Virus record (IMG/VR): IMGVR_UViG_3300042934_000534
Location: 1-26,158 of that record
Direction: 5' to 3' (one strand)
DNA: 26,158 bases
Source: a virus
In this document: positions 6,657-20,791 of the stretch, in pieces
How positions within the stretch are numbered: position 1 is the first letter of the stretch
Layout of the letters: each line of letters starts with the position of its first letter
Translations under genes and position numbers: made by a program
Notes under the pieces: model-generated
Databases searched by the model: none
What the model saw: only the letters and a program-made list of their open reading frames with translations
Told to the model about the DNA's origin: nothing

Positions 6657-7940
6657 TCAGGCGGTGCCGAACAGATCGAGCTGATCGGATTCGGCTTGCT
6701 GCTCTTGATGACGGGTGATTTCGTGTTCGATTCGTGCCCGGCCGATCGCCGCGTACTGCTCATCTATTTCGCATCCAATGAACTGGAAGCCTTCACGCAT
6801 CGCGGCTTTGCCTGTGCTACCGCTGCCCATGAATGGATCGAGCGCCACGCCGCCGGCGGGTGTCACCAGTCGCAGCAGGTAGGCCATCAGGTCAGTCGGC
6901 TTGACGGTCGGGTGAGTGTTTCCCGTCGTCGCAGTGTTCTCGACCTTGCGCAGGGTGGTGCCTCGGGTGAACTGCGGGCCGGGGTTGAGCAGACCCTCGT
7001 GCCGATCGGTGCGACTGGTCTTGGCGCAGTAGAAGAACCTGGCTGCGCTGCCGCTGTCGCCGTGGAAGGCGCCCTCGACCCGATCGCGGCGCTCGGTGAT
7101 GAGGCCAGCACTTGCGGCACTCGCCTCGGTGCCGCGAACTCGCGATGCGGCGCCGGCCTCGGCAGGGAACATCGCCACTACCCCGGGGCTTCCATCGTGG
7201 ATAAGGTTCGCTGGCCAGCGGCCAGCCTTAAGCATGCCGGTGTACTGCGCGTCCTGCTTCCAGGCGCCGGTGTCGTTTACCACGTGGCCGGGCGCCATTC
7301 GCTTCTGGGTGTACTCGGTGGCCTGCGCATCGGCGCCGTGAATTCGGCAGGCGTCAATGTTCAAGGCCCCGGTGCCGTGCGTGATGACATTGGCCGCAAC
7401 AGTACCGGGGAACGGCTTTCGGGCCATGCATATGGGTTCGTGCGCTGGCTTTAGCGCGGTGCCCCATCCTTCGTGCTCGCCTTTGAGGTTATGCGACTTC
7501 GGGAAGCCCGAGCCGAAAACCCACATGATCTGGTCGCGGATTTCGAACCCGGCCATTTCAATTCCAACGGCCATATGGTGATAGGTCCGGGCAGCGGCGA
7601 ACGACAGCAGGTGACCGCCTGGTTTGAGCACGCGCAGACACTCTGTGGCCCATTCAAGCGTGAAAGCCTGAAAGGCCCTCATACCGTCAGGCGTCAGGTC
7701 GTACTTGCCGGCCTCGGCCGCGATCGAGCGATGTCCGCCATTCGGCCCACAAGCGCTAGCGTGGGAAGGCATGCTGGCCCGGTACGCGGCGCGGTCCTCG
7801 ATATCCTTGCCATCCCAGCTTTTGCCCATGAAGCGGATCCCGTAGGGTGGATCAGTCACCACGCTGTCGATGCTGTTGTCTGGCAGCGTCCGCATCATCT
7901 CAATGCAGTCGCCGACCAGGATCTGGTGAGAAGGTGGCAT
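6657..7940 (-). CDS. DNA methyltransferase (N4/N6, beta class) with C-terminal clamp-binding-like motif
   Basis: A 427-residue enzyme expected to transfer a methyl group from S-adenosylmethionine to adenine N6 or cytosine N4. The catalytic motif IV, TDPPYG, is at residues 29-34, and motif I, DPFMGSGSTG, is at 368-377; this order defines the beta class. The region between (about 180-320) is long and holds the target recognition part. The last residues include QLDLF, the textbook sliding-clamp-binding pentapeptide. No restriction enzyme gene is adjacent, so it is probably an orphan that protects phage DNA or alters regulation. Start supported by GAGG eight bases upstream. Confidence 0.9.
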   Translation of the reverse strand: MPPSHQILVGDCIEMMRTLPDNSIDSVVTDPPYGIRFMGKSWDGKDIEDRAAYRASMPSHASACGPNGGHRSIAAEAGKYDLTPDGMRAFQAFTLEWATECLRVLKPGGHLLSFAAARTYHHMAVGIEMAGFEIRDQIMWVFGSGFPKSHNLKGEHEGWGTALKPAHEPICMARKPFPGTVAANVITHGTGALNIDACRIHGADAQATEYTQKRMAPGHVVNDTGAWKQDAQYTGMLKAGRWPANLIHDGSPGVVAMFPAEAGAASRVRGTEASAASAGLITERRDRVEGAFHGDSGSAARFFYCAKTSRTDRHEGLLNPGPQFTRGTTLRKVENTATTGNTHPTVKPTDLMAYLLRLVTPAGGVALDPFMGSGSTGKAAMREGFQFIGCEIDEQYAAIGRARIEHEITRHQEQQAESDQLDLFGTA

Positions 7941-16290: not shown

Positions 16291-16542
16291 TTATGCGTCG
16301 CAGTATTCTCGCCAGCCGATTCTGACGGTGCCGCCCTCCAGGGTCTCGACCCGGACGCCAGAGGTCTCGCCGATCTCATCCAGTAGGCGCTGCCAGTCCT
16401 CTGGTGATTCGTGATCCAGCCTCGCCACTGTGACCGCCTGTACCTTTTGAACGCTTGGAGCAGCGATCAGGGCTTGCAGGCGGCGGCCTGCCGACTCATA
16501 CGACGAGGACAGTTTCGATGTGGTGAAAGCTGGACTGGGCAT
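16291..16542 (-). CDS. DUF1654 family protein, probably SOS controlled
   Basis: An 83-residue protein. The start MPSPAFTTSK was chosen because AAGGAG lies six bases upstream. The segment VQKVQAVTVARLDHESPEDW followed by QRLLDEIGE is the DUF1654 signature as I know it from pseudomonads and their phages. The role is not established; location and regulation suggest DNA damage or induction. It has its own promoter overlapping a LexA-like box and its own terminator, so it is a one-gene unit lying between the CI-side genes and pL. Confidence 0.8.
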   Translation of the reverse strand: MPSPAFTTSKLSSSYESAGRRLQALIAAPSVQKVQAVTVARLDHESPEDWQRLLDEIGETSGVRVETLEGGTVRIGWREYCDA

Positions 16543-16559
16543 GTGGCGCTCCTTATCTA

Positions 16560-16601
16560 TACTGGTTCTATATACAGTATTTACGTTCCTTGGCATTGGC
16601 A
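16560..16601 (-). promoter_or_regulatory. Promoter with LexA-like SOS box
   Basis: Minus strand: TTGCCA (16601-16596), 17 bases, TACTGT (16579-16574). The -10 box is part of TACTGTATATAGAACCAGTA (16579-16560), which fits the CTGT-N8-ACAG LexA box with one mismatch in the second half-site (CCAG). Confidence 0.65.
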
Positions 16602-16655
16602 AGCGTAGTTATGCATTACTGCATATATTTTGCGAGCCGCTTTCTCGTGGGCATG

Positions 16656-16695: not shown

Positions 16696-17271
16696 TCAGT
16701 CCGCAATCGGCGGGTACTTGCCGCTCACCGAGTCTCTATAGACGATCTCGCAGAATAGCCGCGGGCCCTCACGCATAGTGACCAGTGCCCGCTTTGCCTC
16801 TTCCTTCGTTTCAAATGGGCCAGCACCCACAGCCAGGCCGATCATAGGAACAACCGGGAGTCCGGTGCTGGTAATTGCCTCAATGGTTCGCTGCCGCTCC
16901 TCTTCGTCACGGCAGGCAGTTGATGCAACCCATCCATTTTTCAGCTTTGTGGCGGCTACTGGTTCAACGTCTGCACCGCAGTGTTTGCACTTAACGGCCG
17001 CTGTCTTGATGCTCTCGGCACACATAGGGCAGGGGCGCGTGTCTTTCTCTGCCTGGGCAGCAGCAGGGGAGCTTTTGCCGCCAAGCAGAACCATGAGCAG
17101 GCCGGCGAGCGCGATCATCCCGCCAACAATGGTGTGTATCTGTCGGTCAGCCATCAAGCCCATGTTGTTGACTCGCCCGCCAGCGCCGGTCGGCACTGAC
17201 ACGTCCATGCTCAGTGCGAAAATCAGCCAGCACAGGCCTACGATCAGCGCGAACGTTCCAAATCCTTTCAT
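16696..17271 (-). CDS. Two-pass membrane protein with zinc ribbon
   Basis: A 191-residue protein; the start at 17271 has GGAGGG upstream. Membrane helices lie at about 4-22 (FGTFALIVGLCWLIFALS) and 47-64 (IVGGMIALAGLLMVLLGG). A zinc ribbon follows at about 79-99 (CPMC ... KCKHCGADV). The C-terminal part has a GPFETKEEAKRALVTM segment reminiscent of SPOR-type repeats. Located among genes expected to be expressed in the lysogen, it could be a superinfection-exclusion factor, which is inference from place and topology only. Confidence 0.65.
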   Translation of the reverse strand: MKGFGTFALIVGLCWLIFALSMDVSVPTGAGGRVNNMGLMADRQIHTIVGGMIALAGLLMVLLGGKSSPAAAQAEKDTRPCPMCAESIKTAAVKCKHCGADVEPVAATKLKNGWVASTACRDEEERQRTIEAITSTGLPVVPMIGLAVGAGPFETKEEAKRALVTMREGPRLFCEIVYRDSVSGKYPPIAD

Positions 17272-17390
17272 TGGATCCCTCCCGTAATTGAGCCAGCACT
17301 TTACCATCCATGGCTTGTCGCCACCATGGTCGAGCCGAAAGGGGAGGAGGCCCATTTAGTGGCGGTTACAGCTCTGATCAGGGGAGGGCA

Positions 17391-17420
17391 GAAAGAAGAA
17401 GCCCGGCGCTGGGCCGGGCT
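17391..17420 (-). terminator. Terminator after the DUF3037 gene
   Basis: On the minus strand, AGCCCGGC / GCCGGGCT with a five-base loop, then a pyrimidine tail TTCTTCTTTCT. The T-run is interrupted, so efficiency is uncertain. Confidence 0.55.
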
Positions 17421-17424
17421 CAAC

Positions 17425-18267
17425 CTAAGCTATTTCAGCCGATGCTGGAATACCTTCCTTAATTAGACTCACCATGCTTGCTCGATCTTCTTCTGAGCTG
17501 ATCACGCGAACCTCTGGAAACGCGCTCAATTCTGTCGAAACCTCTTTATAAGCCTTAAAAAGCTTCGGCTTTCCAGCGATAGGAGGGCCTGCGACAAACA
17601 AGGTATCTGGTGGTAGCTGGCCCTTAGCGCTTAGGCGTCGCACTCTTGATATCCACGCATCCCCGTGTTCATAGATTTTTCCGGATTCTTCGTGACCAAG
17701 GTGCAATGGTTTGATTGCCTGCACAGGCTTGCCACCCTGAATCAGTACGAATGGAAATTTCACTGGGTAGTCCGATGAGCCCAGCTTTCGATCCACGTAA
17801 TGTTGCTTCAAATTGACGTCAGCCAACAGCCTGCCTAGCTGTTTCTCTAGCGCTGCTTCCTGATATTCCTTTGTCGCAAAGCTGTGCTTCACATAGTGGT
17901 CAAATAGAGCTTTTAGTGCCTGGTCTGAATTTGCCGCAACTATTGAGCCTGGCTCACTGAAGCGCATCATCGTTTCCCGCGGATGCACCAAGTGACTGAA
18001 TGTCGCAGAGAGCGCCTGGCGATCAGATCTATGGCTCGTGAAAAAGCCGCTGAGTCTAGCAAGCTCAGCATTTACTTCTTTTCGTGCCCTGATAAAAATC
18101 TTGGCATCAAGACTTGGGAAAAATGTTGTTACGCGCTGGCGCTTGGTCTCTACGACGAAACGAAAATCACCATTATTGGCAAGCAGCACTATCCCGATGT
18201 TTACAAACTCACCCGTCTCTGGGTAAGGGAGAAACCTCAAAATTGAGTAATTACATATGATTCTCAT
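17425..18267 (-). CDS. DUF3037 family protein, partner of the HipA-like kinase
   Basis: A 280-residue protein. The N-terminal part (YSILRFLPYPETGEFVNIGI and VLLANNGDFRFVV) is the DUF3037 hallmark. The middle is helical, and the C-terminal third has alternating strands (LPPDTLFVAGPPIAGKPKL). No catalytic motif is evident. Its ATG overlaps the kinase stop (ATGA, 18267-18264), so the two proteins are made together and probably act together. Lower GC than the phage core suggests transfer as a cassette. The biochemical role of DUF3037 is, to my knowledge, undefined. Confidence 0.8.
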   Translation of the reverse strand: MRIICNYSILRFLPYPETGEFVNIGIVLLANNGDFRFVVETKRQRVTTFFPSLDAKIFIRARKEVNAELARLSGFFTSHRSDRQALSATFSHLVHPRETMMRFSEPGSIVAANSDQALKALFDHYVKHSFATKEYQEAALEKQLGRLLADVNLKQHYVDRKLGSSDYPVKFPFVLIQGGKPVQAIKPLHLGHEESGKIYEHGDAWISRVRRLSAKGQLPPDTLFVAGPPIAGKPKLFKAYKEVSTELSAFPEVRVISSEEDRASMVSLIKEGIPASAEIA

Positions 18268-19007
18268 AGGGCCCCCCAGAATCGCTCTTCCTTGAACATC
18301 TGCAGAATTTCTAGCCGGCTTGCTAGCGTTGGCTCGGTCAGGTCGATGAGGTCTGCATCCCTATATAGCCAGTCTTCGGTCAAAAAGGTGATGATCGTAT
18401 CCCAGTTCGACAACGCCTTGCTCAGGATATCAGTGTATTCCTGACGAACGAGGTAATCCCTGAAATCTTTGCGGCACTCGCAGAACACGTGCTCTTCAAG
18501 AAATTCTTCGGGATTGAAGGACTTATGAAATGCCAGGTTGTGATCGATGACGGCTAGCTCGCCACGGCTGTCCAATATTAGGTTCACGTTCCCACCCATT
18601 GGGCCGAGAATCCTGTCTCCATTTTGCACCCACCAATCAAATAGTAGAACCTTTCTCATCAGGTCCCGAGGGGTGGATTTCAAATGGGCAATGTTGAAAT
18701 CTACAGCGCTTTCGACCGCTTGCGATGCGAAGGCTAATCCTCCCTCCAGATCGGAGACGTTGGGAACCACGCTGAAGTCGATCAGGTCTTGAGGTACGAC
18801 CATTTTTTTCCACGGAGGAATAGGCAAGCCGAGGGTTTTGCCCAGTTCTGCGCAGAGCAACTCCGATATCAGCGCCGGGCCGCCAGATTTGGAAAGCCCT
18901 TTTACAAAGTAGGTTTCACCATCGTCAGCACGAATAATGAATGGCTTTATGGATATTCCCTGATGGCTTTGTCGAACAATTTCGACAGCTGTTACTAGGT
19001 CCGACAT
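18264..19007 (-). CDS. HipA-like kinase family protein
   Basis: A 247-residue protein, shorter than HipA (about 440). KPFIIRADDGETYFVKGL (about 21-38) includes the ATP-binding Lys; NGDRILGPMGGNVNLIL (about 133-149) matches the catalytic loop with Asp and Asn; LAVIDHNLAF (about 154-163) supplies the metal-binding Asp. This suits the compact HipA-like group often found next to DUF3037. Its substrate is unknown; HipA itself phosphorylates glutamyl-tRNA synthetase. No HipB-type antitoxin is adjacent, so DUF3037 may be the control partner. Its start region carries repeats of AGCCGTAC. The ribosome site is weak (AGGGA). Confidence 0.8.
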   Translation of the reverse strand: MSDLVTAVEIVRQSHQGISIKPFIIRADDGETYFVKGLSKSGGPALISELLCAELGKTLGLPIPPWKKMVVPQDLIDFSVVPNVSDLEGGLAFASQAVESAVDFNIAHLKSTPRDLMRKVLLFDWWVQNGDRILGPMGGNVNLILDSRGELAVIDHNLAFHKSFNPEEFLEEHVFCECRKDFRDYLVRQEYTDILSKALSNWDTIITFLTEDWLYRDADLIDLTEPTLASRLEILQMFKEERFWGAL

Positions 19008-19038
19008 AGCCGTACTATCCCTGAGCTAAATTTGAATG

Positions 19039-19071
19039 CGTAACTTTATTAGCCGTACGGCTCAGGTTACG
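19039..19071. promoter_or_regulatory. Nested inverted repeats before the HipA-like/DUF3037 pair
   Basis: CGTAAC (19039-19044) and GTTACG (19066-19071) enclose the perfect 12-bp palindrome AGCCGTACGGCT (19051-19062). A direct copy of AGCCGTAC lies at 19008-19015, beside the kinase start. This resembles an autoregulatory operator. Confidence 0.5.
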
Positions 19072-19297
19072 TTCTGCTTATGCTTCCCGCCTTCACCTGT
19101 TCTGCGTACCGCTCCAGCCGATCCTCACCAGCCTGCATCACAACGCATATCCGGATCACTGCCTGAGCGTCCGCCTCATTGCCCGCTAGGCTTAGTCGCT
19201 CAGCGATACGCATCAGCTCAACCGCCGACCACTTGAGGTCTGAGGCTGTACCCTGGAGGTCGCGGCGTAATTCTTGGTCGGGTTTGGTGAGGGGCAT
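19067..19297 (-). CDS. Small unknown protein downstream of cI
   Basis: A 76-residue, mostly helical protein (DLKWSAVELMRIAERLSLAG, then EADAQAVIRICVVMQAGEDR). GGAGGTCGCC before the ATG is an excellent ribosome binding site. It starts 13 bases after the cI stop and is probably expressed with the repressor. Its end overlaps the inverted repeat ahead of the kinase pair. Function unknown. Confidence 0.65.
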   Translation of the reverse strand: MPLTKPDQELRRDLQGTASDLKWSAVELMRIAERLSLAGNEADAQAVIRICVVMQAGEDRLERYAEQVKAGSISRT

Positions 19298-19310
19298 GGC
19301 GACCTCCAGC

Positions 19311-19970
19311 TCAGTAGTGAAACTTCTGTGTTGCTTGCACTACGACGCCAACTATTCGGCAGTTTTCATCAAAGACTTCGGTCGGGTATCCGGGGTTGAG
19401 CGGCTTTAGGTAGAGCTTTCCGCCGTCGCTGACCAGTTTCTTAAAGGTCGCCTCGTTGCTGTCTGGAAGTTTGGCCACAACAAGCTTGCCTGGCGCCGCC
19501 TCTACTTCGGTATCCACCAAGATTAGTGAGCCCTGGGCGATGCTCGTACCTACTGGCGATGTCATCGAGTCGCCTTTGACTTCAAGCCAGAACGCTGGGC
19601 CTTTCGAGTTGTATTCGGAAAACTCGTAGCGATCCGATATGCCTGCAGGGTAGGGCTCTACAGCCTCGGCCCAGGAGCCAGCCGATACCCAACTGATCAC
19701 TGGGTAGCGGAAGCTCTGAGAAGGCTGCTCAGGCATGGAGACATTGGGCTCTGATGCCTCCTGCTCAGCACCCTCACCAATAGCAAGCCACTCTGCTCTG
19801 AAGCCAGTTGCTTTTGCCAATGCGTAGAGATTCTCTGGCCGGAGGCTTTTGCTCTCGCCAGTAATCCATTGAGTGACAGCAGAGTTCGCGACGCCGCACA
19901 GCGCCGCAATTTCGCCCTTCTTTTTCCCGCTGAGCTGTATAGCTCGGGCAATACGTTCATGTCTTTCCAT
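19311..19970 (-). CDS. cI: CI-type prophage repressor (HTH plus S24 self-cleavage domain)
   Basis: A 219-residue repressor. Residues about 17-41 (KKKGEIAALCGVANSAVTQW) form the helix-turn-helix. The cleavage site is Ala97-Gly98 (WVSAGSW), the catalytic Ser135 is in GDSMTSP, and Lys177 is in ATFKKLV; the spacing Ser to Lys (42 residues) is close to lambda CI. It should keep the prophage silent by binding the 14-bp operators and be destroyed after RecA activation. There is almost no ribosome binding site before the ATG, so a leaderless transcript is possible, as for lambda cI. Confidence 0.93.
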   Translation of the reverse strand: MERHERIARAIQLSGKKKGEIAALCGVANSAVTQWITGESKSLRPENLYALAKATGFRAEWLAIGEGAEQEASEPNVSMPEQPSQSFRYPVISWVSAGSWAEAVEPYPAGISDRYEFSEYNSKGPAFWLEVKGDSMTSPVGTSIAQGSLILVDTEVEAAPGKLVVAKLPDSNEATFKKLVSDGGKLYLKPLNPGYPTEVFDENCRIVGVVVQATQKFHY

Positions 19971-19980
19971 GGACTCAATA

Positions 19981-20050
19981 TTAAGTTAACTGAATTTAAG
20001 CATGCAGTAGGCGGAAAACTCCGTTGACGCAATCACTTAAGCATGCTGAA
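19981..20050. promoter_or_regulatory. oR: Right operator cluster (three sites)
   Basis: Sites 19981-19994 TTAAGTTAACTGAA, 19996-20009 TTAAGCATGCAGTA and 20037-20050 TTAAGCATGCTGAA share the pL operator consensus. The first two are adjacent near the cI start; the third lies inside the pR promoter. Spacing (15 and 41 bp between centres) differs from the even pL array. Confidence 0.75.
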
Positions 20051-20052
20051 AT
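20024..20052 (+). promoter_or_regulatory. pR: pR promoter
   Basis: TTGACG (20024-20029) and TGAAAT (20047-20052) are 17 bases apart. The strongest operator (20037-20050) overlaps the spacer and -10 box, so a bound repressor would block RNA polymerase. Confidence 0.65.
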
Positions 20053-20079
20053 TGCGTCAGAGTCGAACGAGGATGCGAA

Positions 20080-20259
20080 ATGAATACGCATGAAGTCGCC
20101 GAATTCTTCGGCAGCAAGACAAAGCTGGCACTAGCTCTGGGCATCCGCCCGAGCGCTGTGACCATGTGGGGGGAAACCATCCCCGAATCCCGGCAGTACC
20201 AGATTCAGGTTCTTTCCAAAGGAAAGTTCAAGGCAGCAAAGAAGGCACAAGCCGCCTGA
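20080..20259 (+). CDS. cro: Cro-like repressor
   Basis: A 59-residue protein whose sequence (EVAEFFGSKTKLALALGIRP then SAVTMWGETIPESRQYQIQV) is that of a Cro-family helix-turn-helix protein: KTKLALALGI is helix 2 and PSAVTMWG helix 3. The basic tail KGKFKAAKKAQAA fits non-specific DNA contact. It is the first gene of pR, divergent from cI, and would shut off cI and lower early transcription during lytic growth. GAGGA lies seven bases before the ATG. Confidence 0.85.
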   Translation: MNTHEVAEFFGSKTKLALALGIRPSAVTMWGETIPESRQYQIQVLSKGKFKAAKKAQAA

Positions 20260-20323
20260 CATCCCAGTCCGCCGTTTCATTGAAGCCATCTTGACCGCAA
20301 CCTCCCCAAGGAAAAACTAGGAC

Positions 20324-20791
20324 ATGAAAACGCCCGTACTAGAGACCCGCCGCCAAGTTATGGCAGCCGTGTCCAACGCTTTCCCTGGCGGGATGGATTG
20401 CGCAGCGGCTCGCCTTGGCATCAAGAACAAGCGTCTGGAAAACCAGATCTACGAGACAGCAGGCTGCAAGCCGTTGAGCGATGCCGAGATATTCGTGCTG
20501 GAAAGCGAAACGAAGACCGAGCATCTGCCGGACTACATCTGCGCCATGTACGGCGGTGTGTTCGTGAGGATCCCGGAGGCGGGGGAGTTGGACAACGTCG
20601 ACCTGTACCAGCGCTCGCTGGCTGCATCTGCACAACGCGGCGCCCTTGATCAGATGGTTGCGTCAGCTTTGGAAGATGGCGAGATCGATGCGAATGAAGC
20701 AAAGAAGATCCGCGCCCTGCACGCCAAGTACATGTCGGCGAGCCTTGAGGCTATCGGGGCGGTGATTGAGTTGCACAAAGCCCGCGCATAA
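20324..20791 (+). CDS. CII-like phage regulatory protein (YmfL family)
   Basis: A 155-residue protein. The N-terminal half carries a helix-turn-helix (GGMDCAAARLGIKNKRLENQ) and the middle the motif LPDYICAMYGGVFVRIPE, typical of the CII/YmfL-type regulators. The C-terminal 60 residues are helical (DGEIDANEAKKIRALHAKYM). As second gene of pR, the place of cII in lambdoid phages, it probably controls the lysis-lysogeny decision. AGGAAAAACTAGGAC precedes the ATG. Confidence 0.78.
   Translation: MKTPVLETRRQVMAAVSNAFPGGMDCAAARLGIKNKRLENQIYETAGCKPLSDAEIFVLESETKTEHLPDYICAMYGGVFVRIPEAGELDNVDLYQRSLAASAQRGALDQMVASALEDGEIDANEAKKIRALHAKYMSASLEAIGAVIELHKARA

Follow-up and report, generated by a model that had tools for sequence, protein, structure and literature searches.

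The 26,158-bp stretch of DNA analysed here (hereafter the window) is an IMG/VR virus record of a Pseudomonas-type prophage, and the two genes hipA and hipD near its cI-type repressor very probably form a HipAD-type toxin–antitoxin defence cassette of a temperate phage, acting by a mechanism that we propose by analogy with experimentally studied relatives. HipAD/DS-6/PDC-M66 is already known, and the window copy is a new example of it at a cI-proximal site. We favour this explanation because both proteins can be assigned to HipA_2, DUF3037 and PDC-M66, because the pair shares homology and gene order with that of coliphage PhiR5_1, and because relatives have been tested in published work. It draws equally on results computed here, namely the identity of the genes, an intact active site with invariant catalytic residues, conserved pairing in a retained gene order, a terminator that closes the unit and a survey revealing a variable cargo site. 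An experimentally recognised, kinase-based defence system thus occupies the same cI-proximal position in phages of two different host groups, and this shared position suggests that expression in the lysogen is selected for.

A kinase gene and a DUF3037 gene follow the repressor

On the minus strand, the order of the unit is cI, a gene for a 76-aa protein, hipA, hipD and an intrinsic terminator (Table 1). The hipA product matches the HipA_2 family (PF20613, E = 3.8e-65, residues 8–245) and the hipD product matches DUF3037 (PF11236, E = 4.1e-22, residues 7–126); together with the sequence of the gene junction, these matches confirm the preliminary description of a HipA-like kinase/DUF3037 pair overlapping by ATGA. 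In PADLOC, HipA matches PDC-M66A (E = 4.7e-8, with the match confined to residues 4–161) and HipD matches PDC-M66B (E = 5.5e-19), and hipA and hipD fall in PHROGs 3162 and 5137, both labelled 'unknown function'. PF20613 was the sole Pfam match of the hipA product at E ≤ 0.1, with no match to HipA_C (PF07804).

The unit also has no HipB-like gene, as had been noted before, the only HTH proteins nearby being cI and those of the divergent Cro/CII side. Divergent from cI lies a 59-aa Cro-like ORF (window 20080–20259, plus strand) that falls under the ORF-listing cut-off. The placement of the pair behind cI is real and is found likewise in PhiR5_1, but that wording passes over the 76-aa gene in between. 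A promoter scan of positions 17200–20400 recognised none, that of cI included, and is therefore barely informative on whether hipA has a promoter of its own.

Table 1 Features of the cI-proximal unit and its surroundings, in window coordinates
Feature	Position	Strand	Basis
cI-type repressor (HTH and peptidase S24), at the head of the presumed transcription unit	19311..19970	-	PF00717 (E = 7.1e-28), PF01381 (E = 1.2e-6)
76-aa gene (phrog_6388), located between cI and hipA; possible cargo-site anchor	19067..19297	-	PHROGs, relatives
Nested palindrome CGTAAC-CTG-AGCCGTACGGCT-AATAAA-GTTACG	19039..19071	.	Sequence; not conserved; extends over the 76-aa gene's stop codon
Third GTACGGCT, immediately upstream of the hipA start codon	19008..19015	-	May pair with the palindrome's AGCCGTAC in RNA
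hipA, HipA_2-family Ser/Thr-kinase-like toxin, 247 aa	18264..19007	-	Pfam, PADLOC, invariant residues, model
ATGA junction where the hipA stop and the hipD start overlap (translational coupling)	18264..18267	-	Sequence; identical junction in aligned relatives
hipD, DUF3037 partner and presumed antitoxin, 280 aa	17425..18267	-	Pfam, PADLOC, model, invariant residues
Intrinsic terminator GAGCCCGGCCCAGCGCCGGGCTTCTTCTTTC closing the unit; repeated element and candidate cassette boundary	17391..17421	-	Terminator scan, copies, position bias
Next gene past the terminator (phrog_8032), weak zinc-ribbon match	16696..17355	-	Found again in relatives, beyond the cargo site

Tested relatives point to kinase-dependent defence

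A HipA/DUF3037 pair was described by Nakamura et al. (2025; PMC12548924) beside the type III retron reverse transcriptase of Retron-Sda1. Deleting its HipA kinase led to loss of defence against Bas51 and deleting DUF3037 was toxic, whereas the reverse transcriptase and the ncRNA were dispensable. The window pair has the identical two domains and matches both PDC-M66 models, but no retron gene was seen beside it. DeWeirdt et al. (2026; PMC13092281) described the defence system DS-6, for which they took over the name HipAD from Brenes & Laub 2025; a mutant of its predicted catalytic site lost defence, and AlphaFold3 predicts contacts between kinase and partner and between the partner (DS-6B) and DNA. 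With this class of mechanism published, the earlier statement that the pair has no established mechanism is out of date, and the earlier suggestion of a toxin-type defence operon gains support through homologs, from the deletions in the one study and the kinase-site mutant in the other.

In coliphage PhiR5_1 (PV340545.1), genes annotated as 'HipA toxin' and 'HipD antitoxin' lie immediately after cI, and tblastn searches with the window proteins matched both (HipA, E = 7e-26 with 86% covered; HipD, E = 8e-24 with 82% covered). Like HipAD, the window locus has a HipA_2 kinase gene followed by an overlapping DUF3037 gene, the order cI–hipA–hipD and no HipB; unlike HipAD, DS-6 and PhiR5_1, it has the 76-aa gene and a palindrome between cI and hipA. 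Some points weigh against the assignment to HipAD: identity to the PhiR5_1 pair is just about 31% for HipA and about 33% for HipD, the PDC-M66A match covers only part of the kinase, and DUF1829, which is reported for DS-6B, gave no Pfam match at E ≤ 1 in the HipD of either the window or PhiR5_1. A further difference from HipAD/DS-6 is that the window relatives occur in Pseudomonas rather than E. coli. With HipBA and HipBST the window unit shares the kinase fold and conserved catalytic residues, but it has neither the HTH antitoxin HipB nor a separate HipS, its partner protein is DUF3037, and its kinase belongs to PF20613 and not to the HipA_C family.

By analogy with these relatives, toxicity, neutralisation and phage defence would be expected of the window pair. 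In the lysogen, hipA and hipD would probably be read off the transcript of cI and the 76-aa gene, ending at the terminator. HipD would be made by translational coupling with HipA and would bind and silence the kinase, a role supported in the Retron-Sda1 relative by the toxicity of the partner's deletion. When a second phage infects, HipD might be lost, drawn off or altered, and the freed HipA would then phosphorylate a host factor, which on the analogy of HipA and HipT is probably one acting in translation, such that growth would stop before progeny form.

HipA retains the residues of an active kinase

In an alignment of 23 HipA sequences with identity down to 31%, the residues K36, E49, N129, D131, R132, G138/G139, N142 and I154-D155-H156-N157 are invariant. 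With the roles of these residues taken by analogy, the active site of the window protein is intact, as expected of an active HipA-type kinase. Loss of kinase residues among homologs, which the preliminary description had considered, did not occur in these 23 sequences at K36, N129, D131, R132, N142 or D155. A sequence search of solved structures with HipA gave no match; its AlphaFold2 model (mean pLDDT 78) has CtkA as the top structural match (Z = 12.8) and also matches PI4K-II, CotH, HipT and HipA at Z of about 10–12, with E. coli HipA at about 10.8 and HipT at about 10.6.

The pairing of the two genes is conserved as well. A search of 399 genomes from the genus to which Pseudomonas sp. ANT_J12 (assembly G002) belongs gave kinase matches in 16, and a DUF3037 gene follows the kinase in 13 of these; the remaining three are weak matches (E of about 1e-4). 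The hipA–hipD order is retained in relatives, including the overlapping junction in those that were aligned. A second subfamily occurs on plasmids of the P. syringae group and on chromosomes.

HipD is modelled with a nuclease-like fold but lacks conserved catalytic acids

The HipD model has a mean pLDDT of 78 and a pTM of 0.57, which leaves the placement of its domains uncertain. Residues 131–280 are modelled in the order alpha-beta-beta-beta-alpha-beta, that of the PD-(D/E)XK core, and the best match among solved structures is the restriction enzyme BstEII (Z = 10.0 over 132 residues, 3.3 Å). Several nucleases of the PD-(D/E)XK group follow at Z = 7.5–8.1, with Cdn1, PspGI, Bax1 and Can2 at Z = 7.7–8.1, intermixed with unrelated folds; because matches below Z = 8 are mostly G-protein and other common alpha/beta folds, BstEII alone stands out. 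For the N-terminal DUF3037 part, where model confidence is low, no fold match appeared among those listed, and a sequence search of solved structures with HipD gave no credible match.

A fold of this kind could make HipD the effector, a nuclease for which the kinase would serve as regulator, and the modelled PD-(D/E)XK-like C-terminal domain is what speaks for such an arrangement. Its conserved residues do not bear the idea out. Across 27 HipD homologs the invariant positions are A184-x-K186-P187, H201-x-D203-x-W205 and R211; with strands assigned from the model, the place of (D/E)-x-K is taken by the invariant A184-x-K186, and the preceding strand carries no conserved aspartate. In the Retron-Sda1 relative, moreover, it is HipD deletion that is toxic and HipA deletion that abolishes defence (PMC12548924), and we regard a nuclease effector as highly improbable. 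Because the signature acids are not conserved, the modelled C-terminal domain of the presumed antitoxin HipD most likely serves DNA binding, sensing or repression rather than cutting. Such a degenerate nuclease-like fold suggests a testable hypothesis for the action of the antitoxin.

The upstream palindrome is not conserved

Both a nested palindrome upstream of hipA and a third copy of its repeat at the kinase start had been described earlier, and both are present; the 8-mer GTACGGCT at the start of hipA is its sole further occurrence in the window. Perfect palindromes of 12 bp are common in the window (11 observed against 7.5 expected). The nested arrangement is rarer, with 1 observed against 0.13 expected per window, or about 0.0007 per 150 bp, by criteria set post hoc.

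The palindrome and the third copy might serve as an operator for the HipA–HipD complex, giving autoregulation of the HipB kind, a role that would be compatible with a defence cassette. The rarity of the nested arrangement, the AlphaFold3-predicted contact of DS-6B with DNA in the relative (PMC13092281) and the resemblance of the HipD C-terminal fold to DNA-cutting enzymes are all in keeping with this, but comparison with relatives is not. The exact nested palindrome occurs in none of the other loci among 260 fetched; the lone match, L001, is the window. When the window is aligned with the five relatives closest to it, none of the ten palindrome pairs is changed on both sides and 73% of cells remain paired, so the element decays without compensation. 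L036, whose HipA is 92% identical to that of the window, does not have the palindrome, and in L002, L003, L005 and L035 the third copy reads GTGCGGCT. Nucleotide homology between the window and other HipAD copies stops at the terminator (window 17385–17391) and begins at 19301 (L002), 19098 (L003), 19031 (L036) or 18992 (L016 and L024); the starts in L036, L016 and L024 therefore exclude the palindrome from the shared homology. The cI–cro operator region (19900–20400) contains no related repeat. Alignment, pair counting, the exact search of 260 loci and the homology breakpoints thus all leave the conserved operator proposed in the preliminary description unsupported. An operator role in the window itself appears rather unlikely, and the palindrome is unlikely to be an operator as a general feature of HipAD.

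Alternatively, the element might act in RNA, with AGCCGUAC pairing with GUACGGCU at the hipA start in a hairpin that would leave the AGGGA ribosome site bulged and would curb translation of the kinase from the cI read-through transcript. This hairpin is the predicted minimum-energy fold of the hipA leader, and in six relatives 86% of its cells are paired and two pairs show changes on both sides, above slid controls. Against it, the covariation score was reached by 52 of 500 shuffles, the z of the fold energy is just −1.3 for the window and +1.6 for L002, and the hairpin is missing from L036; we consider it quite unlikely.

The cassette appears to occupy a variable, terminator-bounded cargo site

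At least 118 viral contig stretches carry relatives of the 76-aa gene, in one to three copies, with up to three tandem diverged copies (for example in L003 and L119). Of 75 testable loci, 68 have a repressor-like ORF no more than 2 kb upstream of this gene, a count in which the iterated repressor model possibly also catches other HTH proteins. ORFs downstream of the 76-aa gene group into 55 clusters. In PADLOC, the 55 cargo representatives match 154 families compared with 6 for 55 control ORFs from the same loci, a contrast inflated by a single ATPase that accounts for 98 families and by the shorter average length of the controls (173 versus 236 aa). Strong cargo matches include PDC-M53A (9e-158), PDC-M11A (5e-134), PDC-S13 (7e-92) and PD-Lambda-2_B (3e-48), compared with 3e-6 for the best control ORF, and Pfam matches of the cargo include DUF1828, a HigB-like toxin, an ImmA/IrrE-like peptidase and ATPases.

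The cassette could instead be an addiction module, in which HipAD kills cells that lose the prophage and phage defence is a side effect. Toxin–antitoxin logic and the toxicity of antitoxin deletion in a relative (PMC12548924) fit that account equally well, and copies of the second subfamily reside on plasmids. It is nonetheless an improbable account: among the alternative cargos at the site are defence genes, validated or candidate (PD-Lambda-2_B, PDC-M11A and PDC-M53A), and defence in the relatives is kinase-dependent (PMC12548924, PMC13092281). Under the defence explanation, the cassette would be one of many alternative cargos between the 76-aa gene upstream and a common terminator downstream.

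Across 69 prophage loci, the terminator core, GCCCGGCCCAGCGCCGGGCTTCTT, occurs 75 times on the coding strand in the 4 kb that follow the last 76-aa gene, with at least one copy in 50 of these loci, compared with 2 copies on the opposite strand; none occurs in their remaining ~507 kb. These copies follow very different cargo genes, in the window as in loci L058-L137 and L142-L221. With one mismatch allowed, 35 of 199 genomes from the genus contain the terminator. A repressor or 76-aa gene lies within 4 kb upstream at 11 of 20 inspected chromosomal terminator places and in 38 of the 45 viral loci that have sufficient DNA.

Blocks shared between loci span from terminator to terminator, as in L003 7588–8104 compared with L119 8274–8788 (96%) and with L111 7025–7542 (97%), which suggests that gene-plus-terminator cassettes may be exchanged. 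Boundary sequences and morons, long known from lambdoid phages, embody a similar idea. In L159, terminator copies at 7867, 8562 and 9257 (oriented) have an exact spacing of 695 bp, suggesting tandem duplication of one cassette.

HipAD thus seems to be one of the cassettes carried at a defence-cargo site close to cI, apparently a plug-in position at which different defence genes are swapped among related prophages. Lambda RexAB and the RexABpp of P. putida prophage P1 are likewise two-gene defence units downstream of a cI-type repressor, although their proteins and mechanism differ. RexABpp sits two genes behind the CI-like repressor of P1 (PMC12894663); these two extra genes are comparable to the 76-aa gene of the window, and by this analogy its location is possibly the same kind of site.

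Taken jointly, these results lead us to a tentative reading, plausible though short of probable: many Pseudomonas-type temperate phages would carry a modular, terminator-bounded defence-cargo site after the repressor and an often duplicated 76-aa anchor, the conserved 24–29 bp terminator would be a recombination boundary, and HipD would be a nuclease-derived, cleavage-dead antitoxin or sensor. The terminator and the 76-aa anchor provide a simple sequence handle for listing interchangeable prophage defence genes, many of them unnamed.

An unnamed pair of genes (about 178 and 252 aa) recurs downstream of the 76-aa gene in L104, L100, L101, L105, L107 and L081, and its second gene in L081 has a weak PADLOC match to PDC-M24B. 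In the window, a DUF1654 gene (PF07867, E = 4.6e-19) lies at 16291–16602 on the minus strand.
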